A stretch of 64,000 nucleotides of DNA from Candidatus Faeciplasma pullistercoris (GTDB lineage: Bacteria > Bacillota > Clostridia > Oscillospirales > Ruminococcaceae). The stretch is taken from assembly GCA_018715525.1 (NCBI GenBank), contig DVLL01000016.1, positions 1 to 64,000 on the forward strand, read 5' to 3'. How positions within the stretch are numbered: the stretch's first letter is position 1; every line of letters begins with the position of its first letter. Under the pieces are notes generated by a model that saw nothing but the letters and a program-made list of their open reading frames with translations, was not told the origin of the DNA and searched no databases. This document shows, in pieces, positions 20,291 to 41,840 of the stretch. Made by a program: the position numbers and the translations under genes.

Positions 20291-20299
20291 AGAGATTAC

Positions 20300-21619: not shown

Positions 21620-23050
21620 TCAGACATTTACTACCGTGTCTACCTCTTCCGGTCTGTTCTCAGGACGGGAAAGAAGCTCTCTTACAGAAGCGACATACTC
21701 CTCGGTCTGCTCCTTTGCTCTACCGGTGAAGCCGCCCTCGCGGATTATTCCCTCAAGCTCGCTTCGCGTTATACCGAATACGGGGTCGGCGGCGATCCTG
21801 TCCATGAGGTCGTTATTTGCTCCCTCAGCCTTGATAGCCTTTGCGGCGGCTACAGAGTGAGTCCTGATAGCCTCATGCAAAACCTGACGGTCTCCGCCCT
21901 TCTTGACACAGTACATAAGGATGTTTTCCGTAGCTATGAAAGGCAGTTCCTCCATAAGGTGCTTTTCTATCACCTTGGGGTAAACGCTCATGCCGTTGAC
22001 TATATTTATGTACAAGGTGAGTATTCCGTCTATGGCGAGGAACGCTTCCGGGATGCTTATGCGGCGGTTTGCGGAGTCGTCAAGCGTTCTTTCAAACCAC
22101 TGCTCCGCTGCCGTCATAGCGGGGTTCATGGCGTCCGCCATAACATATCTCGATAGGGAAGCGATTCTTTCGGAGCGCATCGGATTGCGCTTGTAAGCCA
22201 TTGCGGAGGAGCCTACCTGTCCAGCCTCAAAGGGCTCGTCCACTTCTTTAAGATGAGACAAAAGCCTTATGTCGTTCGAGAACTTATGCGCGCTCTGAGC
22301 TATGCCGGAAAGAACAGAGAGGGTGAAATAATCAACCTTTCTTGTGTAGGTCTGACCGCTGACTGCGTAGGTCGCTTCAAAGCCCATCTTCTCGGCAATA
22401 AGCTTTTCAAGCTTCTTGACCTTTTCGTGATCTCCTCCGAACAGCTCAAGGAAGCTCGCGCCTGTACCGGTTGTTCCTCTGCATCCGAGAAGCTTCAGGT
22501 TCCCAAGAACAAAATCGAGGTGCTCAAGATCAAGCACAAGATCCTGAAGCCAAAGTGTTGCGCGCTTGCCGAGCGTGGTGGGCTGAGCCGCCTGGAAGTG
22601 GGTGTAAGCGAGGCAGGGCAGAGCCTTGTGCTTTTCAGCGTAGTCGCACAAGGAAGAGATTGCTGCCAGAAGCAGCTTGCGTATCTGCATAAGAGCCGCG
22701 CGCTGCTGAATGATGTCGGTGTTGTCTCCGACGTAGCAGCTTGTCGCTCCGAGGTGGATTATCGGCTTTGCCTTGGGGCAGCATAGACCGTAGGTGTAGA
22801 TGTGGGCCATCACGTCATGGCGGACTATTTTCTCGCGCTCCGCGGCGGTCTTATAGTCGATGTCGTAAATGTGCTCCTTCATCTGGGCTATCTGATCGTC
22901 TGTTATGTCGAGCCCAAGCTCCTTTTCGCTTTCTGCGAGGGCTATCCACAGCTTGCGCCATGTGGAAAACTTGGTATCGTCGGAGAAAATATGCTGCATT
23001 TCCTTGCTCGCATAGCGTTTGCAGAGCGGATTTTCATATCTGTCTGACAT
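21620..23050 (-). CDS. purB: Adenylosuccinate lyase
   Basis: A 476-residue fumarase/aspartase-superfamily enzyme that removes fumarate from adenylosuccinate and from SAICAR. It has LGATSCYVGDNTDI, TLGKRATLW and the signature loop GSSAMAYKRNPMRSERI with the catalytic Ser. It follows purC by 30 bp, fitting its action on the PurC product. Confidence 0.96.
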   Translation of the reverse strand: MSDRYENPLCKRYASKEMQHIFSDDTKFSTWRKLWIALAESEKELGLDITDDQIAQMKEHIYDIDYKTAAEREKIVRHDVMAHIYTYGLCCPKAKPIIHLGATSCYVGDNTDIIQQRAALMQIRKLLLAAISSLCDYAEKHKALPCLAYTHFQAAQPTTLGKRATLWLQDLVLDLEHLDFVLGNLKLLGCRGTTGTGASFLELFGGDHEKVKKLEKLIAEKMGFEATYAVSGQTYTRKVDYFTLSVLSGIAQSAHKFSNDIRLLSHLKEVDEPFEAGQVGSSAMAYKRNPMRSERIASLSRYVMADAMNPAMTAAEQWFERTLDDSANRRISIPEAFLAIDGILTLYINIVNGMSVYPKVIEKHLMEELPFIATENILMYCVKKGGDRQVLHEAIRTHSVAAAKAIKAEGANNDLMDRIAADPVFGITRSELEGIIREGGFTGRAKEQTEEYVASVRELLSRPENRPEEVDTVVNV

Positions 23051-23080
23051 TATATCTCTCCCTTCAGGAATTATTGAGTT

Positions 23081-23779
23081 TTACTTTGTGAGTCTTGCGA
23101 GGACGTCCTTATAGCCCTCCATTACGCCGCCCATGTCTCTGCGGAAGCGGTCCTTATCCATCTTTTCGTTTGTCTTAGCGTCCCAAAGACGGCAGGAGTC
23201 GGGAGAGATCTCGTCGCACAGGACAATCTCGCCGCCGTCTACGCGGCCGAACTCGAGCTTAAAGTCTATGAGTCTGATGCCGGCCTTAGCAAATAGCTCG
23301 GTCATAAGCTCGTCCACTCTTAAGGACATTGACTTGAGAAGATCGAGCTCCTCCTGAGTGGCGACGCCGAGGGCGGTTATCTGGCTGTCGTTGATCATCG
23401 GATCGCCCAGCTCATCGCTCTTGAGGCTGAACTCAACTACGGTATTCTTAAGAGCGGTTCCCTCGGGCACGCCGTACTTCTTTGAGAAGCTTCCAGCTGC
23501 GACATTTCTGACTATGACCTCTACCATTACGATGTCCGCCTTCTTGACAAGAACGGAGGTTTCGTCAAGAACCTTGATGAGGTGGGTCTTCACCCCGTTT
23601 TTCATCAGGTACTCAAAGATGATGTTGGAAATCGCGGCATTGAGCTTGCCTTTTTCGGGGAGATCTTCCTTCTTGACACCGTTTCCGGCAGTCGCGGTGT
23701 CCTTATACTTGATTATGCAAGTGTTTGGCTCTTCACCCTCGTAAACTATTTTGGATTTTCCTTCGTACAGCATTTTCAT
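23081..23779 (-). CDS. purC: Phosphoribosylaminoimidazole-succinocarboxamide (SAICAR) synthase
   Basis: An enzyme of about 232 residues that ligates aspartate to CAIR using ATP in purine synthesis. It begins near LYEGKSKIVYEG and has VVRNVAAGSFSKKYG, LIDFKLEFGRVDGG (the family signature) and DEISPDSCRLW. The start is uncertain: the frame runs up to a TTG at 23794, which touches the AAAGG site; ATG 23779 and ATG 23773 are better placed in alignment but 15-21 bases from that site. It is the first gene after a strong promoter in the end of purF. Confidence 0.95.
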   Translation of the reverse strand: MKMLYEGKSKIVYEGEEPNTCIIKYKDTATAGNGVKKEDLPEKGKLNAAISNIIFEYLMKNGVKTHLIKVLDETSVLVKKADIVMVEVIVRNVAAGSFSKKYGVPEGTALKNTVVEFSLKSDELGDPMINDSQITALGVATQEELDLLKSMSLRVDELMTELFAKAGIRLIDFKLEFGRVDGGEIVLCDEISPDSCRLWDAKTNEKMDKDRFRRDMGGVMEGYKDVLARLTK

Positions 23780-23815
23780 TTTCAGATCAACCAACCTTTA
23801 TATTTATTTATCCTA

Positions 23816-23851
23816 TGCGATGAACACGCATATTGCGATGAACACGCATAT
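23816..23851. repeat. 18-bp perfect tandem repeat in the purC leader
   Basis: TGCGATGAACACGCATAT occurs twice, head to tail (23816-23833 and 23834-23851). Each copy can form a small hairpin (TGCG or ATGCG with CGCA or CGCAT, 7-base loop), so the purC mRNA leader would carry two identical stem-loops about 40-70 bases before the start codon. Confidence 0.75.
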
Positions 23852-23964
23852 CAACATGTAGAGCTCCGCAGCGATAAATCGTGCAGACATAGAAACAAGA
23901 CATAATACCGATTTCTCTTTCAGAAGATGAGTACTATGCTTGCTTTATCCATTATTCAATATAA

Positions 23965-23993
23965 ATAATATTCAAAATACGAGGGTTTGTCAA
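23965..23993 (-). promoter_or_regulatory. Promoter of purC-purB-purA-carA-carB
   Basis: TTGACA (23988-23993) and TATTAT (23965-23970), 17 bp apart on the minus strand, start four bases after the purF stop codon. The leader to purC is about 180 nt. Confidence 0.8.
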
Positions 23994-23996
23994 CAG

Positions 23997-27094
<3,098 letters not shown>

Positions 27095-27151: not shown

Positions 27152-27736
27152 TTATCTGTACATTCTTACTATGCTCTCGGCGATTGTTCTCTTGGTGACG
27201 CAGCTGTCCATCGCCTGTTTTTCTATATACCTGTGAGCCTCAGCCTCGTTCATGCCCCGTTCTGAGATAAGAAGCAGCTTTGCGCGGTTCACCACTCTTA
27301 TCTCCTCCATCTTTTCTTCGACGGACGCTGTCTTTTTCTCCATCCTGCGAAGCCTTTCCCTCGTGGCGCAGAGCAGCCTCATCACCTGTAGGATAAACTG
27401 CGCTGACGCATGTTTTGACACGGTGAACACCCCGTACGGAACAAGTCTTGCGTTCAGCTCGTGGTACTGCTCCGCCTTTGCGAGAAAGAGTACGCCCGAG
27501 CTGGAGTTGACGCTTAGGTCTGTAGCAAGGTGGAGTCCAACATCGTCCGGAAGCGGGGAGTTTATAATTACCACGTCAAAGCTGCGTTCCAAGAGAGTCC
27601 TGTTCGCAGAGCAGACGTCAGTCTCGATTTTTATCGGGTCGTAATTTTCCTTTCCGAGCAGCTGAAGAATTGTGTCGTTGAATTTCTCAGAGGCGGACAC
27701 TACCATTACGCTGTACATTCGCTCCCGCAATTCCAT
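27152..27736 (-). CDS. ANTAR-domain transcription antiterminator with a pseudo-receiver domain (NitR-like)
   Basis: A 194-residue protein. Residues about 7-120 have a receiver-like alpha/beta fold, but the phosphorylated Asp position is Asn59 (FDVVIINSPLPDD) and the N-terminal acidic pair is missing (MVVSASEK), so phosphorylation is unlikely. A coiled coil (about 122-145) leads to the ANTAR domain (about 140-190): NRAKLLLISERGMNEAEAHR and YIEKQAMD. ANTAR domains bind RNA hairpins with six-base loops and prevent terminator formation. It is the last gene of the glutamate synthase-glnA operon, 44 bp after glnA, with AAAGGAG before its ATG. Matching RNA sites are visible before this operon and before glutamine synthetase III. 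An analogous ANTAR gene next to glnA (NitR) is, as I recall, known in Clostridium saccharobutylicum. Confidence 0.9.
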   Translation of the reverse strand: MELRERMYSVMVVSASEKFNDTILQLLGKENYDPIKIETDVCSANRTLLERSFDVVIINSPLPDDVGLHLATDLSVNSSSGVLFLAKAEQYHELNARLVPYGVFTVSKHASAQFILQVMRLLCATRERLRRMEKKTASVEEKMEEIRVVNRAKLLLISERGMNEAEAHRYIEKQAMDSCVTKRTIAESIVRMYR

Positions 27737-27780: not shown

Positions 27781-28989
27781 TTACCTGTTGCAGTAGCTTT
27801 GAATAATACCCTCGGGAATATATTTTCTGATAAACTCGCTGCTTGAGGCTGTCGCCGCCGCGGCGTGAAGACTCTTGGGAAGAAGCTCGTAGCCCGCAAG
27901 CTCTGAGGGTGAAGCCTCGTTCATGTTTATGTCGCACGGAGCGGGAAGAGTAAGACCCCGCTCTATTCCCTCGATGCCCGCGTTGATAAGGAGCGTAAGG
28001 GCGAGATACGGGTTACAGGATGGGTCGGGAGAGCGCAGCTCAGCCCTCTTTCCGCCTCCGACGTAGGCGGGTATTCTTATGAGCTGAGAGCGGTTCTCAT
28101 GTGTCCAGGATATGAATTTCGGAGCCTTGTAGGTTCCGAACCGTCTGTACGAGCCATCCGACGGATTCAGGAATATCGTCATATCTGATATTCTGTCAAG
28201 TATACCCGCGAGCACCGGCTGCAATATGTCAGAGCCGTCCTTTGATGCGGAGATATTTATGTGCATGCCGCTGCCTGCCTCATTCTCAAGCGGCTTAGGG
28301 GAGAAGTCAGCGTAAAGCCCGTATCTCGCTGCGACAGTGCTCACTACGGTGTGGAAGGTGACCGCGTTGTCGGCGGCTGTGAGCGGCTCGGAGTAGCGAA
28401 ACGCTATTTTATTCTGACCGGGGCCCTCGACGTGGTGCGACGATTCGGGAAGTATACCCATCTGCTCGAGGCTAAGGCATATCTCCCTGCGGACGTTTTC
28501 TCCCTTGTCGTCAGGCGCAATATCCATATAGCCGGCGTTGTCGTAGGGAATTGAGGTCGGATTGCCGCTCTGGTCGCGGTTAAATAGGTAAAACTCTGTT
28601 TCAGGACCGAAATTGAACATGTATCCCTTATCCGTCGCAGCCTTGACTGTATTTTTCAAAAGATTCCTTGTATCGGCGCTGAACGGCGTGCCGTCAGGAT
28701 TTATGATTTCGCAGAACATCCTGACAACTCTTCCGTGCTCCGGTCTCCAGGGCAGAATGGAAATGTCGGACGGGTCTGGCTTAAGGAAAAGATCTGAGTG
28801 AGATTCCCCGCCGAAGCCCGCTATGGCGGATGCGTCTATCGCTATGCCGCGCTCAAACGCCTTTTTCATTTCACTCGGCATAACCGAGATGTTCTTCTGT
28901 CTTCCAAAAACATCGCAGAAGGCAAGCCTTATGAATTTGACATCCTCCTCGGCGAGATACTGCATTATTTCATCGGGTGTATAGCTCAT
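27781..28989 (-). CDS. glnA: Glutamine synthetase, type I-like
   Basis: A protein of about 402 residues making glutamine from glutamate, ammonia and ATP. The beta-grasp segment VKFIRLAFCDVFGRQKNI, the metal-site FGPETEFYLF, EGPGQNKIAF, GSGMHINIS and NRSQLIRIPAY, and KRAELRSPDPSCNPY are all present. It is about 40 residues shorter than common bacterial GlnA, and I see no Tyr adenylylation motif. The ATG at 28989 has GGAG 12 bases upstream; an upstream GTG at 29019 directly after AGGAGAGGA is a real alternative. It lies inside the glutamate synthase operon, so the two halves of the GS-GOGAT cycle are co-transcribed. A second, unrelated synthetase (type III) lies at 36289. Confidence 0.93.
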   Translation of the reverse strand: MSYTPDEIMQYLAEEDVKFIRLAFCDVFGRQKNISVMPSEMKKAFERGIAIDASAIAGFGGESHSDLFLKPDPSDISILPWRPEHGRVVRMFCEIINPDGTPFSADTRNLLKNTVKAATDKGYMFNFGPETEFYLFNRDQSGNPTSIPYDNAGYMDIAPDDKGENVRREICLSLEQMGILPESSHHVEGPGQNKIAFRYSEPLTAADNAVTFHTVVSTVAARYGLYADFSPKPLENEAGSGMHINISASKDGSDILQPVLAGILDRISDMTIFLNPSDGSYRRFGTYKAPKFISWTHENRSQLIRIPAYVGGGKRAELRSPDPSCNPYLALTLLINAGIEGIERGLTLPAPCDINMNEASPSELAGYELLPKSLHAAAATASSSEFIRKYIPEGIIQSYCNR

Positions 28990-29054
28990 ATCTGTCTTTG
29001 CTCCGGCAGACCGGGGCACTCCTCTCCTAAATTCATATACAGCCTTACGGCTTG

Positions 29055-29774
29055 TCAGTTCTGGACGTACATCTGCTTGTAAGGATTCTTGCTATCCGGG
29101 GTTATTACCGTGAAAGGCTTTTCTAAAATAGCCTCGCTGTCCACTCCAAAGAGCCCGCAGTAGCGCATGATGTGCGGCAGAGCCTCGTCAAGCTCCTCGT
29201 CGGTTGCAGTATGCGCGGAAACCTGACGCGGCAGCTTCAGCTTTGAGACGTCCTCGCGCAAAAACACCTTTCCTCCGTGCATACCGGTGCAGGGGAAGTT
29301 GCCGACTATCGGCTTGCCGTCGTCGTGAAGACCGAGCACTATGATAAGTCCGCCGGCTTGATATTCGCCCAAAAAGCTTCCCGTTCTTCCGCCTATAACC
29401 ATTACCGGCTTCTTTTCCTTATACTCCTTCATATGGATTCCGGCACGATATCCGGCGTTTTTCTGAACAAAGATTTGTCCGCCTCTCATGGCGTAGCCGA
29501 CGGCGTCTCCGACTGTTCCATGGATGACTATGCTGCCGTCGTTCATCGTGTCTCCGACCGCATCCTGCGCGTTGCCGTCTACGGTTATGTTGGCTCCGTT
29601 GAGGTATGCGCCTAAGGCGTTGCCCGGGATGCCGTCTATTGTTATGTTTTTATGGGACAATCCTGCCGCTATGAATCTCTGACCAAGGCAGCCGGTTATA
29701 TGGACATCGTCCGAAGACTCCCTTATTGTTCGATTGAGAGTGGCAAAGTCAAGTTCGTTAGCCTTTATTACCAT
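29055..29774 (-). CDS. Glutamate synthase GXGXG-domain subunit (split GOGAT)
   Basis: A 239-residue right-handed beta-helix protein built of repeats such as GIPGNALGAYLNGA, NAQDAVGDTMNDG, TVGDAVGYAMRGG and NAGYRAGIHM. This is the C-terminal structural domain of bacterial GltB, encoded alone as in archaeal-type glutamate synthases. It braces the synthase domain and ammonia tunnel rather than doing chemistry. It starts 1 bp after the oxidoreductase stop codon. Confidence 0.88.
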   Translation of the reverse strand: MVIKANELDFATLNRTIRESSDDVHITGCLGQRFIAAGLSHKNITIDGIPGNALGAYLNGANITVDGNAQDAVGDTMNDGSIVIHGTVGDAVGYAMRGGQIFVQKNAGYRAGIHMKEYKEKKPVMVIGGRTGSFLGEYQAGGLIIVLGLHDDGKPIVGNFPCTGMHGGKVFLREDVSKLKLPRQVSAHTATDEELDEALPHIMRYCGLFGVDSEAILEKPFTVITPDSKNPYKQMYVQN

Positions 29775-29775
29775 A

Positions 29776-31008
29776 TTATATTACACCTCCAAGCTTAGAT
29801 TTGCAATACTCTCTGCCCAACAAATACAGCTCCGGCGAAACCTTGAGCGACTCAAAGTCAACGGTATCGAGGGGAGTTTTGTTTCTTATAAGATTGGTGT
29901 AAATTCCCACTCTGTCGGTGCAGCCTATTATAATAAAGCCTACAAGTCTGCCGTCCCTGACATAAAGCTTCTTGAGCGTGTCCTGAGTTTTTTCCTCATA
30001 TACCTCTCCGGAGTAGCTGCCTGCGGTCATTACATGCTGCCCGAAGAAGCCTATGGAGTTCATCGGGATGGCGTTGTCAAAATCAGAATCAGAGCCTGCC
30101 ATGTTCTTGCCTGCGCACACGCCCTGCATGTAGGCGTTTGGCATTATAGCCATGACTTTTTCGGTTTGCGAGGCTATGTCATAGCTCTGGGTGCAGTCTC
30201 CGGCGGCGTAGACGCCGGGAACGGAGGTCTCCATTTTTGTGTTTACGACAATTCCTCTTTCGCACCTGCATCCCGCGCTTATTGCGGTCTTGGTAGCGGC
30301 TCTTACTCCGACTGCCACTACCAGCACATCGAATTCTACCTTTGCTCCGCTCCTCATAATCGCAGTGTTCCCATCAAATTTTGACACTGTGTCGCCGAGC
30401 ATCAGCGTGATTCCGTGATTTTTGAGGTTAGCCTCAACCATTGACGCAGAGTCCTTGTCAAGAATACTCGACATCACCGTGTCGGCAAGATCGCATACCG
30501 TTATAGACTTTACTCTTTCGTGCAGTCCCTCCGCGCACTTCAGACCTATCAGTCCGGCACCGACTATCAAAACTCTGCTCTTATGAGTAATGGCGCTTTC
30601 GAGAGATGTAGCGTCGTCCATGGTCATGAAGCTAAAGCGCTTTTCCACCTTATCAAGCCCTTCCATCGGTGGGACGAAAGGATTTGAGCCGGACGCTATG
30701 CAGACCGAGTCGAAGCTTATTTTTTCTCCGCTCTCAAGCACAACCGTTTTTGCATCTGGATCGATACTTGCGGCAGTCTTGCCGTAGAGGACCTCGCATC
30801 CGTTTTTTTCATAGAAGTCATCAGCGCGGTAGCTCATTTTTTGGAGAGTAGTCTTACCCTCAAGGTAGTAAGAAATCAGCGGGCGGCAGTAGACGGGGTG
30901 ATTTTCAGAGGAAATAACCGTGATTTTTCCATCTTTGTCTATGCTTCTGATGCCCTCTATGCAGCCTGCGGCAGCGACGCCGTTGCCTATAATCACGTAG
31001 TTCTTCAT
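29776..31008 (-). CDS. FAD/NAD(P)H-dependent oxidoreductase of the glutamate synthase operon
   Basis: A 410-residue pyridine nucleotide-disulphide oxidoreductase-family protein. It has the N-terminal FAD Rossmann motif IGNGVAAAGCIEG, a second dinucleotide motif VLIVGAGLIGLKCAEG (about residues 145-160), and VYAAGDCTQ for the flavin ribityl. It resembles rubredoxin and nitrite-reductase flavin domains. No redox-active CxxxxC is seen. By position it should pass electrons from NAD(P)H through the neighbouring ferredoxin to the synthase subunit, in place of GltD. Confidence 0.85.
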   Translation of the reverse strand: MKNYVIIGNGVAAAGCIEGIRSIDKDGKITVISSENHPVYCRPLISYYLEGKTTLQKMSYRADDFYEKNGCEVLYGKTAASIDPDAKTVVLESGEKISFDSVCIASGSNPFVPPMEGLDKVEKRFSFMTMDDATSLESAITHKSRVLIVGAGLIGLKCAEGLHERVKSITVCDLADTVMSSILDKDSASMVEANLKNHGITLMLGDTVSKFDGNTAIMRSGAKVEFDVLVVAVGVRAATKTAISAGCRCERGIVVNTKMETSVPGVYAAGDCTQSYDIASQTEKVMAIMPNAYMQGVCAGKNMAGSDSDFDNAIPMNSIGFFGQHVMTAGSYSGEVYEEKTQDTLKKLYVRDGRLVGFIIIGCTDRVGIYTNLIRNKTPLDTVDFESLKVSPELYLLGREYCKSKLGGVI

Positions 31009-31012
31009 TTTA

Positions 31013-31444
31013 TTACCTCTCCTCGTATACTATCGCTCTGTTTGGGCATCCCTTTACGCACGCAGGCTCGCCGGAGCTGTTTCTGAGGCAGAGCTCGCAC
31101 TTTTGGACAGCGCCGGTCTCGTCCTGTGATATGGCTCCGTAGGGGCAGACCAGGACGCATGTCAGGCAGCCTATGCACTTGTTTTTGTCTATGCTGACCA
31201 TGCCGTCCTCAGACTTTGACAGCGCTCCCGATATGCAGCTGCGCACGCATATCGGGTCGGTGCAGTGCCTGCACGAGACGGCGTACGTTATCTTGTCGTC
31301 GCCCTCGACTTTTATCCTCGGGTATATGTCTTTGCCCTTGAGCGCTTTAACCATATCGTCGCAGCCGGAGTTTGCGAAAGCGCAGTTATATTCGCAAAGG
31401 TGGCAGCCAAGGCACCATTTTTCGTTTACATATACTCTTTTCAT
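31013..31444 (-). CDS. 4Fe-4S dicluster ferredoxin subunit
   Basis: A 143-residue HycB/DmsB-type electron carrier. It has cysteine groups CLGCHLCEYNC, CRHCTDPICVRSC, CIGCLTCVLVCP and CELCLRNSSGEPACVKGCP, enough for up to four 4Fe-4S clusters. It overlaps the synthase gene stop by 4 bp (ATGA). In this operon it most likely wires the flavin oxidoreductase to the synthase; direct use of reduced ferredoxin is another option. Confidence 0.9.
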   Translation of the reverse strand: MKRVYVNEKWCLGCHLCEYNCAFANSGCDDMVKALKGKDIYPRIKVEGDDKITYAVSCRHCTDPICVRSCISGALSKSEDGMVSIDKNKCIGCLTCVLVCPYGAISQDETGAVQKCELCLRNSSGEPACVKGCPNRAIVYEER

Positions 31445-32946
31445 TCTCCTGCGTGTGAGATACCGAGAATCTCAAGCTCCTTTTCCGTAAGATTTACACC
31501 GCGCAGCATAAGTCGGTTTCCGCGCAGCGCTTCAATGGAGTTAATTCCCATACCGCCCATAAGCTCCATTATCTCATGCCTCCATGCGGTCATGAGGTTT
31601 ATAAGCCTCTCGCTTCCTATGTCGGGGTTGAGCCTCTTGACGAGCTCGGGACGCTGGGTAGCAATGCCCCAGTTGCACTTGCCGGTCTGGCAGGTGCGGC
31701 AGAGATGACAGCCAAGCGCGATAAGTGCGGCCGTCGCTATGTAGCAGGCGTCCGCTCCGAGCGCGATTGCCTTTACAACATCGGCAGAGGAGCGTATGCT
31801 TCCGCCGACGACAAGTGATACGTTGTTTCTTATGCCCTCGTCGCGAAGCCTCTGGTCTACGGCTGCGAGCGCAAGCTCTATCGGTATTCCTACATTGTCC
31901 CTTATCCTTGTCGGAGCAGCTCCGGTTCCGCCTCTGAAGCCGTCTATCGCGATGATATCAGCACCGCTTCTGGCAATTCCGCTTGCTATAGCAGCGATAT
32001 TGTGAACAGCCGCCACCTTTACGATGATTGGCTTTTTATACTGTGTAGCTTCCTTCAGAGAGTAGACAAGCTGCCTTAGATCCTCGATCGAATAGATGTC
32101 GTGGTGCGGGGCGGGGGAGATAGCGTCAGAGCCCTCGGGTATCATTCTGGTTCTTGAGACGTCGCCTACTATCTTGGTTCCAGGAAGGTGTCCGCCTATT
32201 CCCGGCTTAGCTCCCTGACCCATCTTTATTTCGACTGCCGCGCCGGCGTTGAGGTAGTCCTCGTGGACTCCGAAGCGTCCTGACGCCACCTGAACTATGG
32301 TGTTCGCGCCGTAGCAGTAAAAGTCCTCGTGCAGGCCGCCCTCACCGGTGTTGTAGTAAATGCCCAGCTCCTTTGCCGCACGCGCCAGACTCTCATGGGC
32401 GTTGTAGCTTATAGAGCCGTAGCTCATCGCCGAGAACATCACCGGCATTGAAAGCTCGAGCTGAGGCGGAACGTCGGTCTTAAGGGAACCGTCGGGGTTT
32501 CTTGTTATTTTGGCAGGCTTCTTGCCGAGGAATACCCTTGTTTCCATAGGCTCGCGAAGCGGGTCTATCGGCGGATTTGTAACCTGCGAGGCGTTTATAA
32601 GTATCTTGTCCCAGTAAACAGGCATCGGCTTTGGATTGCCCATAGAGGACAGAAGCACTCCTCCGCTTTCAGCCTGCTTATATATTTCTTTTATGGTGTC
32701 CGCCTGCCAGTTGGCGTTTTCACGGAAAGCGCAGTCGCTCTTTACGATTTTAAGAGCTCTTGTCGGGCAGATAGATACGCATCTGTGGCAGTCAACACAT
32801 TTTGATTCATCTGCGACCATCGCAGACAGATCCGGGTCAAAGTGATGGACCTCATTCGCGCACTGTCTTTCGCAGGCGCGGCAGGCTATGCACCTGTCTT
32901 TATTTCTTATTACCTCGAACTCGGGGTAAATATACGCAAGTCCCAT
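31441..32946 (-). CDS. Glutamate synthase, FMN/Fe-S synthase subunit
   Basis: A 501-residue protein. Residues about 10-75 carry two ferredoxin-type 4Fe-4S motifs (CIACRACERQC; CVDCHRCVSICP). The rest is the FMN-binding synthase barrel with MSYGSISYNAHESLA, NTGEGGLHEDF, KMGQGAKPGIGGHLPG and IDGFRGGTGAAP, and CHLCRTCQTGKCNWG near the C-terminus. It reduces the imine of 2-oxoglutarate and ammonia to glutamate. It is the archaeal-type split form; the glutaminase and GXGXG parts are separate genes on either side. It starts 1 bp after the glutaminase stop. Confidence 0.92.
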   Translation of the reverse strand: MGLAYIYPEFEVIRNKDRCIACRACERQCANEVHHFDPDLSAMVADESKCVDCHRCVSICPTRALKIVKSDCAFRENANWQADTIKEIYKQAESGGVLLSSMGNPKPMPVYWDKILINASQVTNPPIDPLREPMETRVFLGKKPAKITRNPDGSLKTDVPPQLELSMPVMFSAMSYGSISYNAHESLARAAKELGIYYNTGEGGLHEDFYCYGANTIVQVASGRFGVHEDYLNAGAAVEIKMGQGAKPGIGGHLPGTKIVGDVSRTRMIPEGSDAISPAPHHDIYSIEDLRQLVYSLKEATQYKKPIIVKVAAVHNIAAIASGIARSGADIIAIDGFRGGTGAAPTRIRDNVGIPIELALAAVDQRLRDEGIRNNVSLVVGGSIRSSADVVKAIALGADACYIATAALIALGCHLCRTCQTGKCNWGIATQRPELVKRLNPDIGSERLINLMTAWRHEIMELMGGMGINSIEALRGNRLMLRGVNLTEKELEILGISHAGE

Positions 32947-32947
32947 A

Positions 32948-34039
32948 TCAGTATGCGCCCTCCTTTACATTTACTATTACCGGTTCTCCTCCGGAAGGAG
33001 CATAGATGTTCTCGGCGTCCGGCTCCATAACGCGTATCGCCGCTTCCTCGCTGGCGATATAGACCATGTCGTTCTTTTCGGCGGTTACCATAGAGCGGAG
33101 CTTAAGCCTGTCGTTGAGCGCCATAAGTCCTCCCTCAAAGCCAAGTATAATTGAAAATGGTCCTGTTATCAAAAGACTGGGATATATAGTTCTTAAGTAG
33201 TTAAGCTGCTCTCTTTCATGCTCAGGTCTTGAATCTATGGTAGACCAGAAGGGAGCCGCTATTACAGACGCCATTTCCTTGAGGGTGAGTCCCTGCCTGC
33301 GGATAAGATAGTCGGCGATGTAGGTTATAACCTCGGTGTCTGTCTGAAGGGTGCACTTGTAGCCGAACATCTCTATGTAACGTCTGTTGGCGTCATAGGA
33401 GGAAATTTCGCCGTTGTGGACAATGGAGTAGTCCAGTAGCGCAAACGGGTGAGCGCCGCCCCACCAGCCGGGGGTATTGGTAGGATACCTGCCGTGAGCT
33501 GTCCAGGAGTAGCCCTCGTATTCCTCGAGTCTGTAGAACCTTCCTACGTCCTCAGGGAATCCCACCGCTTTAAACACGCCCATGTTCTTTCCGCTTGAAA
33601 AGACATACGCGCCGTTAATGCCGGTGTTGATCCTCATCACCATTCTGGCTACATACTCCTTTTCGTCCAACTGTAGTCTTGAGAGTACGGAACGCAGCGG
33701 AGTGACAAAGTATCTCCAAATAAGCGGCACGTTTGTAATTTCGGGTATTTTTCTTATCGGAATAGTCTCAGCCTTGACAATTTCAAACATTTCCCTGAGG
33801 AAGCGTTCACATTCCTCCCTGTCCGAGTTGTCGTTATAGAAAATGTGTAAAGCATAGAAATCCCTGTATTCGGGGTATATCCCGTACGCCGCGAAGCCGC
33901 CTCCCAAACCGTTTGAACGGTCGTGCATGGGGACCATGCTCTGCATGATTTTTTCACCGTTTACCCGTCTGCCTTCCTTTGATATCATGGCTGATATTGC
34001 GCAGCCGGACGGTATCCTGACCTGCCCCTCCAAGAGCAT
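32948..34039 (-). CDS. Glutamate synthase glutaminase subunit (class II amidotransferase)
   Basis: A 363-residue protein. The nucleophile is probably Cys13 of SGCAISAMIS, so a 12-residue propeptide would be removed, as in GltB. WTAHGRYPTNTPGWWGGAHP and IVHNGEISSYDANRRY are class II glutaminase motifs. It releases ammonia from glutamine for the synthase subunit. First gene of a seven-gene operon ending with glnA and the ANTAR regulator. ATG 34039 is 9 bases after GAAAGGA. Confidence 0.9.
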   Translation of the reverse strand: MLLEGQVRIPSGCAISAMISKEGRRVNGEKIMQSMVPMHDRSNGLGGGFAAYGIYPEYRDFYALHIFYNDNSDREECERFLREMFEIVKAETIPIRKIPEITNVPLIWRYFVTPLRSVLSRLQLDEKEYVARMVMRINTGINGAYVFSSGKNMGVFKAVGFPEDVGRFYRLEEYEGYSWTAHGRYPTNTPGWWGGAHPFALLDYSIVHNGEISSYDANRRYIEMFGYKCTLQTDTEVITYIADYLIRRQGLTLKEMASVIAAPFWSTIDSRPEHEREQLNYLRTIYPSLLITGPFSIILGFEGGLMALNDRLKLRSMVTAEKNDMVYIASEEAAIRVMEPDAENIYAPSGGEPVIVNVKEGAY

Positions 34040-34065: not shown

Positions 34066-34123
34066 ATAAAAGAAAAGGCGTTCACCATACACAGACAGTT
34101 GTCCTGTATGAATGAACGCCTTT
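34066..34123 (-). terminator. Leader attenuator terminator of the glutamate synthase operon
   Basis: The minus-strand transcript can form an 11-bp stem, AAAGGCGTTCA (34113-34123) with TGAACGCCTTT (34074-34084), continued inside by CATACA/TGTATG, and followed by a U-rich tract. It begins only about 10 bases after the predicted transcription start, before the first gene. Read-through therefore has to be regulated. Confidence 0.85.
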
Positions 34124-34128
34124 GCTCA
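34113..34128 (-). promoter_or_regulatory. Hexaloop antiterminator hairpin (candidate ANTAR target)
   Basis: TGAGC-AAAGGC-GTTCA on the minus strand: a 5-bp stem (one G-U) around a six-base loop with A at position 1 and G at position 4. It uses the whole 5' arm of the terminator at 34066-34123, so the two folds exclude each other. ANTAR proteins bind such loops, normally as a pair of hairpins; I see only one here. Confidence 0.65.
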
Positions 34129-34139
34129 CCAATATTCGC

Positions 34140-34168
34140 ATTATATCACCCTTAAATTCATATGTCAA
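34140..34168 (-). promoter_or_regulatory. Consensus promoter of the glutamate synthase operon
   Basis: TTGACA (34163-34168) and TATAAT (34140-34145), exactly 17 bp apart on the minus strand. Such a strong promoter ahead of a terminator points to control after initiation. Confidence 0.88.
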
Positions 34169-34277: not shown

Positions 34278-34289
34278 AAGCTAAACTGT

Positions 34290-34586
34290 TGAGGAAGAGA
34301 AGTAAGCGTCAAGGGTGTACCAAGAGAGCCGCAGGCGGTGGGATTGCGGCGTATAACGTGATGCTGAATGGACTTCTGAGGGCGACCGGAAACGAGACCC
34401 GCAAGGTGGGTTTTGGACTATGGAAGACGGAGCGGCTTTCCGTTAACAAAGCACTCGTATATGCTTGTTTTTGGATTATGTCCGAAGCGCAGGTACGTAA
34501 GAGAGGGCGATATTATCGCCAAGCAGGGTGGCACCGCAGGATTCTCCTGTCCCGGCAATTATTATAATTGTGGGACGGGTTTTTTA
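34290..34586 (+). ncRNA. T-box leader, probably tRNA-Trp responsive
   Basis: The leader begins GAGGAAGAGAAGTAAGCG (stem I with the AGTA internal-loop motif). It carries a GAA-TGG-A specifier region with TGG at 34369-34371, and contains the diagnostic T-box AGGGTGGCACCGCAGG at 34525-34540. An intrinsic terminator (stem about 34546-34580, then TTTTTT) follows. Uncharged tRNA-Trp would pair with the specifier and T-box bulge and allow read-through into the tryptophan synthase-like gene, whose function fits the Trp specifier. Confidence 0.92.
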
Positions 34587-36035: not shown

Positions 36036-36064
36036 TTGACAAAAGCATATACCGGTAGTATAAT
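36036..36064 (+). promoter_or_regulatory. Consensus promoter of the glutamine synthetase III operon
   Basis: TTGACA (36036-36041) and TATAAT (36059-36064), exactly 17 bp apart, identical in design to the glutamate synthase operon promoter. Confidence 0.9.
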
Positions 36065-36071
36065 CATCGCA

Positions 36072-36089
36072 TAAGGCAAGGGCGTCTTA
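36072..36089 (+). promoter_or_regulatory. Hexaloop antiterminator hairpin 1 (candidate ANTAR target)
   Basis: TAAGGC-AAGGGC-GTCTTA: a 6-bp stem with a six-base loop, A at position 1 and G at position 4. It lies at the very 5' end of the transcript and overlaps the 5' arm of terminator 1. It shares GCAA(A/G)GGCGT with the hairpin of the glutamate synthase leader. Confidence 0.7.
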
Positions 36090-36124
36090 GAGAACACACG
36101 AATCTCTAAGACGCTTTATTTTTT
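36082..36124 (+). terminator. Leader terminator 1 of glutamine synthetase III
   Basis: A perfect 12-bp stem, GCGTCTTAGAGA with TCTCTAAGACGC, a 9-base loop and TTTATTTTTT. It ends about 55 bases after the expected transcription start. Without antitermination only a short RNA would be made. Confidence 0.92.
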
Positions 36125-36210
36125 ACCGCCTTATAGGCGCTTTATGCTTTTCGGCAATGTATCACACACCTGCGCTGAAAGTCGGGCACACATAAAAATA
36201 CTTGTTTATA

Positions 36211-36230
36211 TTCGGGCAATGACGTCTGAG
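36211..36230 (+). promoter_or_regulatory. Hexaloop antiterminator hairpin 2 (candidate ANTAR target)
   Basis: TTCGGGC-AATGAC-GTCTGAG: a 7-bp stem with G-U pairs and a six-base loop, again A at position 1 and G at position 4. It overlaps the 5' arm of terminator 2. Confidence 0.58.
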
Positions 36231-36266
36231 CTAAGATAAGCTAAGGCGCATTGTCCGATTTTTTAT
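36213..36266 (+). terminator. Leader terminator 2 of glutamine synthetase III
   Basis: CGGGCAATG pairs with CATTGTCCG, continued by CGTCTGAGCT with AGCTAAGGCG (one mismatch) around a 6-base loop, then ATTTTTTATT. It ends about 23 bp before the ATG, so it is the second barrier on the same transcript. Confidence 0.85.
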
Positions 36267-36288
36267 TTGAAAAAAGGAGAGTTGATTC

Positions 36289-38382
36289 ATGAGCAAGGTC
36301 ACAGAGATTTTCGGCACAAAGGTTTTTGATGACAGGGTTATGAAGGCGAACCTTCCCACCGACATCTACAGATCGCTGAAGAAGACAATCGATGAGGGCG
36401 CAAAGCTGGACATTGATGTAGCTGACGCAGTCGCCGATGCGATGAAGGATTGGGCAATCGCCAACGGCGCGACCCATTTCACTCACTGGTTCCAGCCTCT
36501 CACCGGAATAACCGCAGAAAAGCATGACGCATTTATTTCTCCCGCACCGGACGGCAGGGTGATTATGGAGTTTTCCGGCAAGGAGCTTATAAAGGGCGAG
36601 CCGGATGCCTCGAGTTTCCCCTCCGGAGGATTAAGAGCTACATTTGAGGCAAGAGGATACACGGCATGGGATCCCACCTCGTACGCGTTCATAAAGGACA
36701 GCACACTTTGCATACCTACCGCGTTCTGCTCCTACGGCGGAGAGGCTCTTGACAAGAAGACCCCGCTGCTCCGCTCCATGGAGGCGCTCAATAAGCAGGC
36801 GCTCAGAATACTCAAGCTCTTCGGAAACGACACCGTCAAGTGCGTGAGAACTTCCGTGGGACCCGAGCAGGAATACTTCCTCGTTCCCAAGGAGCTTTAT
36901 GAGAAGAGAAAAGACCTCGTCTTTACCGGAAGAACGCTTTTCGGTGCAAAGCCTCCAAAGGGTCAGGAGCTTGATGATCACTACTTTGGAGCAATCAAGC
37001 CAAGAGTCGCGGAGTACATGAAGGACCTCAACGAAGAGCTGTGGAAGCTCGGTATCCTCGCCAAGACACAGCACAACGAGGTTGCACCGTCTCAGCACGA
37101 GCTTGCTCCTATCTATTCTACAACCAATATTGCAACCGACCACAACCAGCTTACGATGGAGATAATGCAAAAGGTCGCCGCAAGACACGGACTTGTCTGC
37201 CTGCTCCATGAAAAGCCGTTCGCTGGTGTAAACGGAAGCGGAAAGCACAACAACTGGTCTATCTCGACCGATACCGGCGTAAACCTTTTGACTCCCGGTG
37301 AGACTCCGTACGAGAACGCTCAGTTCCTTATCTTCCTTTGCGCTGTAATCAAGGCTGTGGACGACTATCAGGATCTTTTGAGACTTTCAGTCGCTACGGC
37401 GGGCAACGACCACAGATTGGGCGCTAACGAGGCGCCTCCGGCAGTCGTATCCATGTTCCTGGGCGATGAGCTGACCGCTGTTTTGGACGCCATCGAAAAC
37501 GATACCCCCTATAACGGAGCGGAAAAGACGGTCATGAAGCTCGGCGTGCATGTTTTGCCGAGATTCACACGCGATACCACAGACCGCAACCGCACATCTC
37601 CCTTCGCATTTACCGGCAACAAGTTCGAGTTCAGAATGCTCGGCTCTTCAAACTCCATCGCCTGCGCAAACATCATGCTCAACGCTGCTGTTGCAGAGTC
37701 GCTGAAGATATATGCGGACAGACTTGAGGGAGCAGAGGACTTTGAATCGGCACTTCATGCGATGATCAAAAAGACCATCAAGGATCACAAGAGAATCATC
37801 TTCAACGGCAACGGCTACGACGACGCATGGATAAAGGAAGCTACCGAGGTAAGGGGACTTCTCAACCTCAAGACTACACCTGACTGCATGCCGAGGCTGC
37901 TTGACAAGAAGAATGTAGATATGCTCACATCCCACAAGGTGTTCTCCGTGGCCGAGCTTCACTCAAGATGCGATATAATGCTCGACAACTACTGCAAGTC
38001 GGTAAACATCGAGGCAAACACAATGGTCGATATGGCGAGAAAGCAGATAATGCCCGCGATCGAGGCATACGTATCAGACCTCGCAAAGGCTTGCACAAGA
38101 AAGCTTGCGGTTTCCGACAAGATAAGCATCAAGACCGAAAAAGGACTTATTGAAAAGCTCTCCGCCCTCACCGATAAGATCGACGAGGCAACCGAGGCGC
38201 TTGAGGAGGCAATCGCATCCTACAAGAAGATCACAGATGTGACCGAGGCGTCATACCGCATCAGGGACGACATACTTCCCAAGATGGATGCGCTAAGAGC
38301 GCCCTGCGACGAGGCGGAAACCCTCACCGCGGAAAAATACTGGCCCTTCCCGACCTACGACAAGCTGTTGTTCGGGGTGTGA
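36289..38382 (+). CDS. glnN: Glutamine synthetase type III
   Basis: A 697-residue glutamine synthetase of the large GSIII class found in Bacteroidetes, cyanobacteria and ruminococci; about 700 residues is normal. Recognisable are [55 protein letters not shown] and the Arg-rich [21 protein letters not shown]. It makes glutamine from glutamate and ammonia in the cytoplasm. The ATG follows AAGGAG by 9 bases. The leader has a strong promoter and two regulated terminators, and the Amt-PII gene follows by 32 bp, so uptake and assimilation of ammonium are co-expressed. Confidence 0.96.
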
Positions 38383-38414: not shown

Positions 38415-40172
38415 ATGCAATTTGACTTAGTCGATACGCTATGGGTGTTCCTGTGCGCAATACTGGTGTTCTTTATGAACCTGGGCTTTGCAACAGTCGA
38501 AGCGGGATTTGCCCGTTCCAAAAACACAGTCAACATCCTGTCAAAGAACTTTATTGTCTTTGCAGTTTCATCTCTCGGCTTCATGCTTTTGGGCTGGGGT
38601 CTGATGTTCGGAGGAGACAACCCGATATTAGGAACGGAAAACCTGTGGATTTTGGGCGGAACAGACCTGTCTGTTTATGACGACACCCTCACATCAAGCG
38701 TTCCGTTCTGGGGCAAATTCTTCTTCCAGCTTGTTTTCTGCGGAACGGCTGCCACGATAGTTTCCGGAGCCGTTGCGGAAAGAGTAAAGTACATATCATT
38801 TATCATTTTCTCGTTCGTGCTGACACTTCTCATCTATCCCATAGTCGGTCACTGGATATGGGGCGGAGGATGGCTTGCTGACCTTGGATTCCAGGACTTC
38901 GCCGGTGATACCGCCGTCCACTCCGTAGGAGGTTGGGCTGCACTCGCAGGAGCGATGCTCTTAGGTCCTCGTATAGGCAAGTATGATAAGAACAAACGTC
39001 CGCGCGCTATTCCCGGTCACAGCATGTCGCTTGCCGTCATAGGTTTGTTCGTATTGTGGCTCGGCTGGTTCGGATTCAACCCTGGCTCGACAATGAGCTT
39101 CCAGAACCCGTCTGACGTAATGCACATACTCATGACGACCAACAGCTCTGCTATTGCCGCCGTAATGACGTCAACCATAACGGCGTGGATATTCATAGGC
39201 AAGCCTGACCTCGGCATGACGATAAACGGATGCCTTGCAGGTCTTGTAGGAGTAACCGCAAGCTGTGCATATGTAACCGTAGGCGCATCGCTCCTGATAG
39301 GCGCAATCGCCGGAATAATCGTTGTCTTTGCCGTAATGTTCTTTGACCGCATAGGCATAGACGACCCCGTGGGCGCTACATCAGTTCACCTTTGCTGCGG
39401 AGTGTTCGGAACAATATGCGTAGGACTCTTCGCAAAGGAAGGCGTTACATCCCTCTCCACTAAAAACGGACTGTTCTACGGCGGAGGATTCGGACTCTTG
39501 GGAGTACAGCTGCTTGGCATAGTTGCTGTCGGAGCATTCGTGTTTGCAGCTTCAATGCTCGTTTGGTTCGTCCTTAAAAAGACCGTCGGCATACGCGTTC
39601 CCGCCGAAGAGGAAATCGCCGGACTGGATATCGGAGAGCACGGCAACCGCGCTTATCCCGACTTTGCACCTGCCGTTGACAGCGTTGACTACAGCGCCGT
39701 TGATACTCTTGCAGTCGCCGCACCTGCGACCGCCGAGGCAACTGCCACTGTAGAAGAGGCTGTTCCGGTAGCTCATGAGACGGTTAAGAAGGTAGTCGAG
39801 CATGCCGATGGCGCACCTAAGTTCACAAAGATCGAAATCATCTGCAAGGAGTCCCGCTTTGAGGCGCTCAAGAACGCAATGAGCGGACTCGGAATCACTG
39901 GAATGACTGTTACCCACGTCTTAGGCTGCGGCCAGCAAAAGGGCAAGCCCGAGTACTATCGCGGAGCAGAGGTTGAGGCAACGCTTCTTCCTAAGATTCA
40001 GCTCGATATCGTTGTGAGCAAGGTACCTGTCAGAACAGTAATAGAGACCGCTAAGAAGGTTCTTTACACCGGACACATCGGCGACGGAAAGATCTTTGTC
40101 TATGACGTTGAGAACGTAGTAAAGGTCAGAACCGGCGAAGAAGGATATGACGCACTTCAGGATGTAGAGTAA
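38415..40172 (+). CDS. Ammonium transporter fused to a PII signalling domain (Amt-PII)
   Basis: A 585-residue protein. Residues about 1-405 are an Amt/Rh channel with eleven predicted helices, the twin-His pore residues in AVHSVGGWAAL and SVHLCCGVFGT, and GFNPGST. A linker of about 60 residues rich in Ala, Val and Glu leads to a complete PII domain (about 468-575): KFTKIEIICKESRFEALKNA, the T-loop GCGQQKGKPEYYRGAEVEA with Tyr515 at the PII uridylylation position, and the ATP-binding TGHIGDGKIFVYDVENV. PII binds ATP, ADP and 2-oxoglutarate and normally plugs Amt when nitrogen is plentiful. Here the plug is tethered. I see no separate glnK in the window. Confidence 0.95.
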   Translation: MQFDLVDTLWVFLCAILVFFMNLGFATVEAGFARSKNTVNILSKNFIVFAVSSLGFMLLGWGLMFGGDNPILGTENLWILGGTDLSVYDDTLTSSVPFWGKFFFQLVFCGTAATIVSGAVAERVKYISFIIFSFVLTLLIYPIVGHWIWGGGWLADLGFQDFAGDTAVHSVGGWAALAGAMLLGPRIGKYDKNKRPRAIPGHSMSLAVIGLFVLWLGWFGFNPGSTMSFQNPSDVMHILMTTNSSAIAAVMTSTITAWIFIGKPDLGMTINGCLAGLVGVTASCAYVTVGASLLIGAIAGIIVVFAVMFFDRIGIDDPVGATSVHLCCGVFGTICVGLFAKEGVTSLSTKNGLFYGGGFGLLGVQLLGIVAVGAFVFAASMLVWFVLKKTVGIRVPAEEEIAGLDIGEHGNRAYPDFAPAVDSVDYSAVDTLAVAAPATAEATATVEEAVPVAHETVKKVVEHADGAPKFTKIEIICKESRFEALKNAMSGLGITGMTVTHVLGCGQQKGKPEYYRGAEVEATLLPKIQLDIVVSKVPVRTVIETAKKVLYTGHIGDGKIFVYDVENVVKVRTGEEGYDALQDVE

Positions 40173-40259: not shown

Positions 40260-41840
40260 ATGTGTTCTATAATGGGATATCTGAAGAGTGGTGTAGACCT
40301 TAAGCTCTTCAAGTCAGGCTTTGACAGAACAATATCCAGAGGTCCTGACGACTCGAGGACAGTTGACACAGGCTGCGGTATACTCGGGTTTCACAGGCTT
40401 GCGATAATGGATTTGACATCTAAGGGAATGCAGCCGTTTGAGTATAACGGAAGCTATCTTGTATGCAACGGCGAGGTATACAACTTTAAAGAGCTTGAGG
40501 GCAAAATGCGGGCTAAAGGTTATGAATTTTCCACCGGTTCCGATTGCGAGGTACTTTTGCCGATGTATCGCGAATACGGTGAGAAAATGTTTGAACAGCT
40601 CGACGCGGAATTTGCTCTGATCATATATGACGGAGAAAACCGCGAGTTTGTCGCCGCCAGAGACCCCATAGGCATACGTCCGCTTTACTACGGCTATGAC
40701 AGTGAAAATGCAATGGTGATGGCAAGCGAACCTAAAAACCTTGAGGGGCTTGTCGATAAGATCATGCCTTTCCCTCCCGGACACTATTTCAAGGGCGGAA
40801 GGTTTGTAAAGTACTGCGATTTGTCTGAGGTTAAGAGCGTAGTGCATGATGACCTTGAAACAGTGTGCGCGAACATCCGCGAAAAGCTTGTAAAAGGTGT
40901 GGAAAAGAGACTGGTTGCGGACGCAAAGGTTGGCTTTTTGCTTTCCGGCGGCCTTGATTCATCCCTCGTGTGCGCAATAGCACAAAGGGAGTCCGATAAG
41001 CCTATACGCACCTTCGCAATAGGCATGAGCGGGGACGCCATAGACCTCAAGTACGCAAAAGAAGTTGCGGACTACATAGGCAGCGACCACACAGAAGTCA
41101 TAATGACCAAGGACGACGTTCTGTCGTCGCTTGAGCAGGTTATAAAAATCCTCGGCACCTTTGACATAACGACGATACGCGCCAGTATGGGAATGTATCT
41201 TCTGTGTAAATGGATACATGAAAACACCGACATCCGCGTGCTCCTCACGGGAGAAATATCCGATGAGCTTTTCGGATATAAGTACACCGATTTCGCGCCT
41301 TCCGCCGAGGAGTTCCAAAAAGAATCCGAAAAGCGGATAAGAGAGCTTAACATGTATGACGTCCTGCGCGCCGACAGATGCATATCGGTAAACTCGCTTG
41401 AGGCAAGGGTGCCGTTTGGAGATATAGATTTTGTAAGGTATGTAATGGCTGTAGACCCCGAGAAGAAGATGAATGTGTATAACAAGGGCAAGTACCTTTT
41501 AAGACACGCTTTTGAAGGGGACTACCTGCCTAAGGATATACTCTGGCGTGAGAAGGCTGCGTTTTCTGATGCTGTGGGACACTCCATGGTAGACTATCTT
41601 AAGGAGTACGCGCAGAGCCTTTATACCGATGATGAGTACGAGCAAAAGCGCAGCAAGTATTCTTACTGCACACCGTTTACGAAGGAGTCGCTTTTGTATC
41701 GTGAGATATTTGAAAAGTATTATCCCTCGCAGGCACAGATGATCGTAGGATTCTGGATGCCGAACAAGAACTGGAAGGGCTGCGATGTCAACGACCCGTC
41801 TGCAAGAGTTCTTTCAAACTACGGCGCGAGCGGTCAGTAG
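40260..41840 (+). CDS. asnB: Asparagine synthetase (glutamine-hydrolysing)
   Basis: A 526-residue enzyme. Cys2 after Met is the glutaminase nucleophile (MCSIMGYL), with RGPDDS, GFHRLAIMD and NGEVYNF in the class II domain. The C-terminal synthetase domain has the PP-loop GFLLSGGLDSSLV and LTGEISDELFGY. It makes asparagine from aspartate, glutamine and ATP. Placed 87 bp after Amt-PII, it probably shares that transcript and uses the glutamine made by the type III synthetase. Confidence 0.95.
   Translation: MCSIMGYLKSGVDLKLFKSGFDRTISRGPDDSRTVDTGCGILGFHRLAIMDLTSKGMQPFEYNGSYLVCNGEVYNFKELEGKMRAKGYEFSTGSDCEVLLPMYREYGEKMFEQLDAEFALIIYDGENREFVAARDPIGIRPLYYGYDSENAMVMASEPKNLEGLVDKIMPFPPGHYFKGGRFVKYCDLSEVKSVVHDDLETVCANIREKLVKGVEKRLVADAKVGFLLSGGLDSSLVCAIAQRESDKPIRTFAIGMSGDAIDLKYAKEVADYIGSDHTEVIMTKDDVLSSLEQVIKILGTFDITTIRASMGMYLLCKWIHENTDIRVLLTGEISDELFGYKYTDFAPSAEEFQKESEKRIRELNMYDVLRADRCISVNSLEARVPFGDIDFVRYVMAVDPEKKMNVYNKGKYLLRHAFEGDYLPKDILWREKAAFSDAVGHSMVDYLKEYAQSLYTDDEYEQKRSKYSYCTPFTKESLLYREIFEKYYPSQAQMIVGFWMPNKNWKGCDVNDPSARVLSNYGASGQ

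Follow-up and report, generated by a model that had tools for sequence, protein, structure and literature searches.

Transcription attenuation by ANTAR proteins is already known, as is the use of multiple gates, and several described systems lie close to the leader examined here. For EutV, both of two hexaloop hairpins (P1 and P2) were reported to be required, with a linker of 5-12 nt in the eut genes, and induction was sharply lower when the eut linker was cut to 3 or extended to 14 bases (Ramesh 2012, PMC3369931). The EutV dimer has also been reported to grip no more than one hexaloop at once, and antitermination to be lost when the linker is lengthened by 20 nucleotides; the same paper proposes that P1 brings in the protein early enough for P2, which antiterminates, and calls for further work on single hexaloops (Walshe 2022, PMC8934654). 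Dual stem-loops were likewise demanded in an actinobacterial survey (PMC8164766). In Desulfotomaculum acetoxidans, at least 13 ANTAR attenuators over six transcription units were found with a dual-hairpin model (Ramesh 2012, PMC3369931), and as such several gates per transcription unit have precedent. NitR of Clostridium saccharobutylicum induces genes of the GS/GOGAT cycle by antitermination upon nitrogen limitation (Stutz 2007, via the review PMC6316151), and AmiR, which works with AmiC in Pseudomonas aeruginosa, joins a pseudo-receiver to an ANTAR domain (PMC3369936). The literature searched yielded no report of terminator-linked single-hexaloop ANTAR attenuators, though the supplementary tables of Ramesh 2012 may list some under the dual model. 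Judged from sequence, the apparently new element here is a class of ANTAR targets that are linked to a terminator and carry only one hexaloop, at the 5' end.

The window, by which we mean the whole 64,000-nucleotide stretch of DNA analysed, contains a leader situated between a TrpB-like gene and a type III glutamine synthetase (GS-III) gene. With the EutV/eutP-type attenuator of Enterococcus faecalis (PMC3369931, PMC8934654) it shares an A1/G4 hexaloop overlapping a terminator, nitrogen-related targets and an ANTAR gene in the genome; with NitR (PMC6316151) it shares an ANTAR protein and genes of the GS/GOGAT cycle, and with the D. acetoxidans ANTAR regulon its nitrogen genes. As far as the cited parts of these sources describe them, it differs from the EutV/eutP type in that no P1 was found, the hairpin lies at about +1, a minority of leaders hold two complete gates in series, and the ANTAR protein has no phospho-acceptor Asp; it differs from NitR in that the main target is GS-III and in that the ANTAR gene has a GlnA-like neighbor with changed active-site residues. 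We propose, with a probability of roughly 0.8, that transcription through the GS-III leader is attenuated twice, with one hexaloop per gate, and that both gates are operated by the ANTAR protein whose gene lies 8.3 kb away. The predicted features of the leader and of the genes that follow it are:

36036..36064, + strand: sigma-A type promoter, TTGACA-17-TATAAT, 12/12 consensus matches
36072..36089, + strand: gate 1 antiterminator hairpin A, UAAGGC-[AAGGGC]-GUCUUA, hexaloop 36078-36083
36079..36124, + strand: terminator 1, stem 36079-36117, U-rich tail to 36124
36211..36230, + strand: gate 2 antiterminator hairpin B, UUCGGGC-[AAUGAC]-GUCUGAG, hexaloop AATGAC 36218-36223
36212..36268, + strand: terminator 2, stem 36212-36258, U-rich tail to about 36268, ribosome-binding site just downstream
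36289..38382, + strand: GS-III gene (Pfam GSIII_N)
38415..40172, + strand: ammonium transporter-PII fusion, beginning 32 nt downstream of the GS-III gene
40260..41840, + strand: asparagine synthase B

A preliminary description of this DNA had placed a consensus promoter ahead of the leader, which is borne out by the 12/12 match at 36036-36064, and had proposed hairpins with A1/G4 hexaloops at 36078-36083 and 36218-36223 whose formation excludes that of the terminators, which folding confirms. Its two terminators ahead of GS-III likewise stand, with the correction that terminator 1 begins 3 nt earlier, at 36079. The -10 box lies 7 nt from the stem of hairpin A, which would start at about nucleotide +1 of the transcript, and hairpins A and B are 140 nt apart, loop to loop. 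The terminators fold at -21.3 kcal/mol (z -6.84) and -27.5 kcal/mol (z -7.52), respectively, with 0/200 shuffles as stable in either case; by themselves, hairpins A and B are weak (-4.7 and -6.7 kcal/mol, equalled by 5/200 shuffles each). The loop and 3' arm of hairpin A constitute the 5' arm of terminator 1, and hairpin B is related to terminator 2 in the same way, such that the antiterminator and terminator states are mutually exclusive. The terminators are more stable than the hairpins by more than 15 kcal/mol, and the hairpins could therefore persist only if some agent acts on the RNA. When folding was predicted for the growing transcript, hairpin A stood alone until a length of about 34 nt was reached, and the terminator was dominant by about 42 nt, so that the RNA alone ends in termination and an agent preserving the hairpin would have to act within some 10-20 nt of elongation. 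An Rfam search of 36036-36290 returned no family over its gathering score. On the same strand, a T-box leader (34280-34557; 90.6 bits against a gathering score of 93) precedes the TrpB-like gene, and a lysine riboswitch lies elsewhere in the window (6985-7157, - strand, 72.7 bits) ahead of dapA/lysA/dapF-like genes, the names of which come from reading translations.

GS-III, the AmtB-PII fusion and asnB probably form one operon. On the opposite strand, a glt (GOGAT) run has a leader of the same type, which is a third module in the window and one that went unmentioned in the preliminary entry:

34140..34168, - strand: glt promoter, TTGACA-17-TATAAT, 12/12 consensus
34111..34130, - strand: glt leader hairpin, the third with a hexaloop, GGTGAGC-[AAAGGC]-GTTCATT
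34068..34123, - strand: glt leader terminator, -28.7 kcal/mol, z -6.67
29055..34039, - strand: glt run of glutaminase domain, FMN glutamate synthase domain, Fe-S, NAD oxidoreductase and GXGXG-like proteins
27781..29019, - strand: GlnA-I-like protein with two active-site glutamates changed (HHE to HHV, GQHE to GQNK)
27152..27736, - strand: ANTAR protein with pseudo-receiver

A1 and G4 are found in all three loops of the window (AAGGGC, AATGAC and AAAGGC). The run ends in the order GXGXG protein, GlnA-like protein, ANTAR protein, and the position of the ANTAR gene at the end of a run with the same leader type suggests that the ANTAR gene is probably positively autoregulated. Downstream of the ANTAR gene, its strand carries pyrG, purF, purC, purB, purA, carA and carB (15961-27091, -; names from reading translations), and relatives of pyrG, purF, purC, purA and carA were found elsewhere with modules of their own.

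In a search of the window's own genome (96% complete) with Pfam PF03861, the window ANTAR protein was the only one over the cut-off of 27.3 bits, scoring 60.2 bits there and 57.7 with hmmscan; a weaker second match on contig C10 falls below the Pfam cut-off. Its receiver has Asn59 in place of the phospho-acceptor Asp, a position that we take from the receiver motif, and Asn is found there in 13 of 14 aligned proteins. An Asn at the expected phospho-acceptor position makes a kinase unlikely as the input, as is also the case for AmiR (PMC3369936). The EutV residues K149, E160 and M172, which hold G4 or plug the loop, align with K153, E164 and M176, all invariant in the 14 aligned proteins, K153 and E164 being the counterparts of the Lys and Glu that hold G4 and M176 that of the loop-plugging Met; this mapping comes from a weak match (E 0.07) and an offset of 2 inferred from printed residues. 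EutV Tyr164 aligns with an invariant His in the 14 proteins, and the EutV contacts Arg142, Arg168, Arg175 and Arg177 are not kept in the window protein. Its alignment with AmiR and Rv1626 furthermore runs across the helix linking receiver and ANTAR; in the proteins of solved structure, this helix forms a coiled coil (PMC3369936).

The pseudo-receiver, as in AmiR (PMC3369936), points to a partner protein rather than a kinase as the likely source of the signal. Here such a partner would be the GlnA-like protein, unlike AmiC, and the system differs further in that the amiE leader is reported with both hexaloops (Ramesh 2012, PMC3369931). A GlnA-like coding stretch stands just upstream of the ANTAR gene in 32 of 33 loci (the exception being L055; L061 and L112 denote one location). 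Relative to solved glutamine synthetases, the window protein carries Val and Lys at the Glu positions of HHE and GQHE, glutamates that are presumably metal ligands. Among the 32 neighbors, the first Glu is missing in 15 and kept in 17, and the second is missing in 10 and kept in 22; the changes, HHE to HHV/HHA/HHS and GQHE to GQNK/Q/D/V, extend across L033-L061, L101, L112 and L113, in part of the lineages. It is possible that this neighbor is a pseudo-glutamine synthetase acting as a glutamine sensor.

One point missed by the preliminary description is that each module has a single hexaloop. Taking the 7th base past the -10 box as the predicted start, a rule of thumb, the distance from start to stem is 1-7 nt for 28 of the 30 promoter-linked GS modules and 15-18 nt for the other two (G032 and G035). 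A second A1/G4 hexaloop upstream, corresponding to P1, was found in 0/30 of these modules and at neither gate of the window; in our reading, P1 is missing because the first hairpin would begin at about +1. Among the public matches listed from the genome scan described below, for which a short distance was selected, the stem most commonly begins 8 nt after the -10 box (40/81; range 6-12). The glt leaders with a recognizable promoter gave 0/13 for P1, ten of them with 16-38 free nucleotides, and modules at class level 0/15, while a positive control on EutA leaders of the phylum recovered P1 in all 6 modules (6/23 loci with a module; looser thresholds). As such, the GS-III leader modules fail the dual-hexaloop definition yet resemble ANTAR attenuators in look and position.

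These counts bear directly on the suggestion that a P1 is present in hidden form and that the leader is an ordinary dual-hexaloop target. The characterized ANTAR attenuators of eut, nas and ami do have P1 and P2 (Ramesh 2012, PMC3369931), and a weak upstream hexaloop occurs in 2 of 12 modules that have no promoter of their own; nonetheless, given the absence of P1 from the promoter-linked, glt and class-level modules and its recovery throughout the eut control, we consider a hidden P1 very unlikely. Nor is a second hexaloop seen downstream above chance, as one between hairpin and U-run was found in 2/28 and, among the matches listed, 3/81 cases, about the shuffle rate (63/2180). The requirement of EutV for both hairpins does argue against one sufficing, unless this lineage differs.

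The distribution of the module follows that of ANTAR. A uniform detector was applied to the 350 nt ahead of each GS-III gene (203 nt for one of them); it requires A1 and G4 in the loop, Watson-Crick closing, a stem of 4 or more pairs, 2 of them G-C, and terminator overlap. It found the module in 42 of 48 regions of ANTAR-containing genomes (41/45 genomes) and in 0/11 GS-III upstream regions of genomes without ANTAR. Dinucleotide-shuffled upstream regions gave a hexaloop with a terminator in 4/480 cases, none double. Of the 15 genomes without ANTAR, 11 were usable (two had no GS-III match and two only part of GS-III); these are mostly distant, and their best GS-III proteins are 53-72% identical to that of the window, such that kinship or paralogy accounts for part of the contrast. 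GS-III paralogues had the module in 1/20 cases (G021:C74, with an ANTAR match 2.2 kb downstream on the same contig). A set of 14 control genomes, presumably including Bacillus subtilis, gave no ANTAR match. In four of the 45 ANTAR-containing genomes (G036, G042, G048, G055) no GS-III module was detectable with the uniform detector; by eye, G048 has a 3-bp version. The model R1 and earlier filters, which demanded GC..GT closing or strong matches, had missed the GS leaders of G043, G044 and G053. At class level, among the loci read, ANTAR was found in 15/16 module-bearing genomes and in 6/11 of those in which the model match is no module. The exception is G101 (97% complete, 6% contaminated), with modules or model matches at L176, C57 and C65 and no ANTAR match, for which a missing contig, contamination or another binder are possible explanations.

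In 39 aligned modules, 72 cells were changed on both sides, against 27.8 +/- 5.5 when shuffled and a maximum of 22 when slid, with a covariation score of 0.634 against 0.265; counted by pairs changed on both sides (5/7; shuffles 4.5) or by pair types (14; shuffles 13.4), the modules did not exceed shuffles. The rows had been preselected for at least 4 inner pairs and GC/GT closing, the three outer pairs being unselected, and the percentage of pairing consequently leans upward. Around the common loop AANGGC, the stems are GAAGGC/GTCTTT in GS leaders and GTGAGC/GTTCAC in glt leaders. With a covariance model, R2, from which the window and the two relatives closest to it had been left out, the glt hairpin ranked first (28.2 bits) and gate 1 second (23.7 bits) in the window's own genome. 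Of the 8 matches there, three (C12:145891, C2:82568, C25:58688) have no terminator and lie in or beside open frames, and three further ones have E 5.8-7.2; gate 2 is not among the 8. As far as the models reach, the genome has three modules at two loci.

Given these results, the GS-III leader is real and conserved and, as read from sequence, very probably consists of two ANTAR-type gates in series, and we infer that the ANTAR protein binds its hairpins. 5'-end hairpins can protect mRNA. The leader has a hairpin at its predicted 5' end, and one could postulate that it serves mainly as a shield stabilizing the mRNA, or that the hairpins answer to another trans-acting factor, all the more as ANTAR binding here is inferred and the modules of G101 come with no ANTAR match. 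We give little credence to either, as the module co-occurs with ANTAR, its loops carry A1 and G4 as in known ANTAR targets, the ANTAR gene itself belongs to a gene run with a module, Rfam offers no family for the leader at gathering score, and the terminator overlap recurs in matches that were selected without it. The latter were obtained by scanning public genomes for a promoter and nearby hairpin, the terminator not being selected for, which returned at least 120 stretches, with 83 matches at 80 loci listed; a terminator was present in 81 of the 83 matches listed. At L184 (G155) and L191 (G158), in two families, the promoter hexaloop hairpin is part of an unusually long terminator stem (~78 nt from loop to U-run).

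Turning to the relation between the two gates, the preliminary proposal of two gates in series gains comparative support, as two complete gates recur in many Clostridia. The 48 GS-III regions of ANTAR-containing genomes comprise 32 single, 10 double and 6 without a module, the loops of the ten double regions being 65-141 nt apart; the 83 public matches listed comprise 49 single and 32 double (second module before the predicted gene start), with 2 having none, and the 32 second modules among them lie 58-162 nt away (median 70.5). In 32/32 of these second modules among the matches listed, A2 and a C-G closing pair are kept, although the detector does not demand them. Two gates may give a steep, low-leak response. 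The preliminary alternative, a single ANTAR dimer that spans terminator 1 and holds both hairpin A and hairpin B, is poorly supported. It would account for two A1/G4 hexaloops in one leader, and the alignment to AmiR and Rv1626 across the linking helix, given that this helix is a coiled coil where structures are solved (PMC3369936), is in keeping with it. However, single-module leaders outnumber double ones in both samples (32 against 10; 49 against 32 of the 83 matches listed), so single gates must suffice, and the loop distance varies from 58 to 162 nt across an intervening terminator, which is a poor fit to one dimer at two fixed points. Furthermore, hairpin B is reachable only once terminator 1 has been passed, and an EutV dimer is reported to hold a single hexaloop and to lose activity with a linker of +20 nt (Walshe 2022, PMC8934654). 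We regard bridging as highly improbable.

It may also be asked whether only gate 1 is ANTAR-controlled, with terminator 2 a constitutive or otherwise controlled brake and loop B fortuitous. Under the independent model R2, gate 2 scores just 11.1 bits (E 0.9) and is not significant by that model alone, and it is absent from many relatives. What supports it is its position, its terminator overlap and its conservation in G021, G012, G008 and G023 despite a mostly diverged spacer; as G021 is nearly identical to the window, the conservation argument rests on the other three. Both modules can be recognized in G000, G012, G008 and G023, and hairpin and terminator of the second one persist there while most of the inter-gate spacer has diverged; A1, A2, G4 and the C-G closing pair recur in second modules, both in the 10 double regions and in the 32 among the matches listed. 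As such, a leader controlled at gate 1 only is unlikely. By eye, G008 (L006) keeps gate 2 together with the stem and terminator of gate 1, the gate 1 loop being GAAGGT, which has no A1 and so offers a natural case for what the loop requires.

In the double attenuator that we favor, the nascent RNA would by default fold terminator 1, and then terminator 2 if the first is passed, and GS-III, amtB-PII and asnB would stay low. The signal is presumably nitrogen shortage, by analogy with NitR of C. saccharobutylicum as described in the review cited above. Active ANTAR protein would then grip the hexaloop of hairpin A as the RNA emerges from RNA polymerase, keeping the loop and 3' arm out of terminator 1 so that transcription continues, and hairpin B would repeat this step at terminator 2. 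Each gate would thus operate with one hexaloop and without the recruitment hairpin P1, and with the ANTAR gene behind the same leader type the circuit would reinforce itself. A more speculative extension, which we offer only tentatively and consider rather unlikely, is that the single 5'-end hexaloop is a complete antiterminator onto which ANTAR is loaded at or just after initiation, that gates are stacked to multiply the switch, and that the signal comes from a GlnA-like glutamine/ammonium sensor, which is losing its active-site glutamates in this lineage and which holds or frees ANTAR, as AmiC does with AmiR, rather than from a kinase.

The at least 120 public-genome stretches would constitute a natural class in which P1 is apparently missing and the first gate's sole hairpin lies at about +1. 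If single-hexaloop gates work, then P1 is dispensable and the timing argument of Walshe 2022 (PMC8934654), as it is set out in the part of that paper cited here, needs revision. If true, dual-hairpin search models may have overlooked part of a nitrogen regulon in Clostridia, one that may reach glutamate dehydrogenase and the purine/pyrimidine amidotransferases. Double and single gates in sister species would furthermore provide a ready comparison for the effect of attenuator stacking.

The genes behind the 83 public matches listed include GS-III (47), AmtB-PII (6) and GlnA (2), along with glutamate dehydrogenase (12, by N-terminus, two of them confirmed), PurF (3, one at 30% identity), GMP synthase (2) and CTP synthase (2, one confirmed). 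CarA, AsnB, PurC, PurA, DapF and a branched-chain aminotransferase occur once each, and the last three matches listed comprise an IS200 transposase, one unnamed gene and one case without an open frame. The targets belong to the ammonium/glutamine/glutamate economy, like the dual-hairpin targets described in the cited part of Ramesh 2012 (PMC3369931). In C. thermocellum treated with methyl viologen, the ANTAR gene, the GOGAT genes and one glutamine synthetase gene, its type not being given in the passages cited, are reported to fall together, and the glutamine synthetase gene beside the ANTAR gene (Clo1313_2031) is listed as non-responding (PMC4676874). Modules also stand upstream of dapF at L093 (G053; gene identified by eye) and at L241, and as such lysine/diaminopimelate synthesis may belong to the same regulon.
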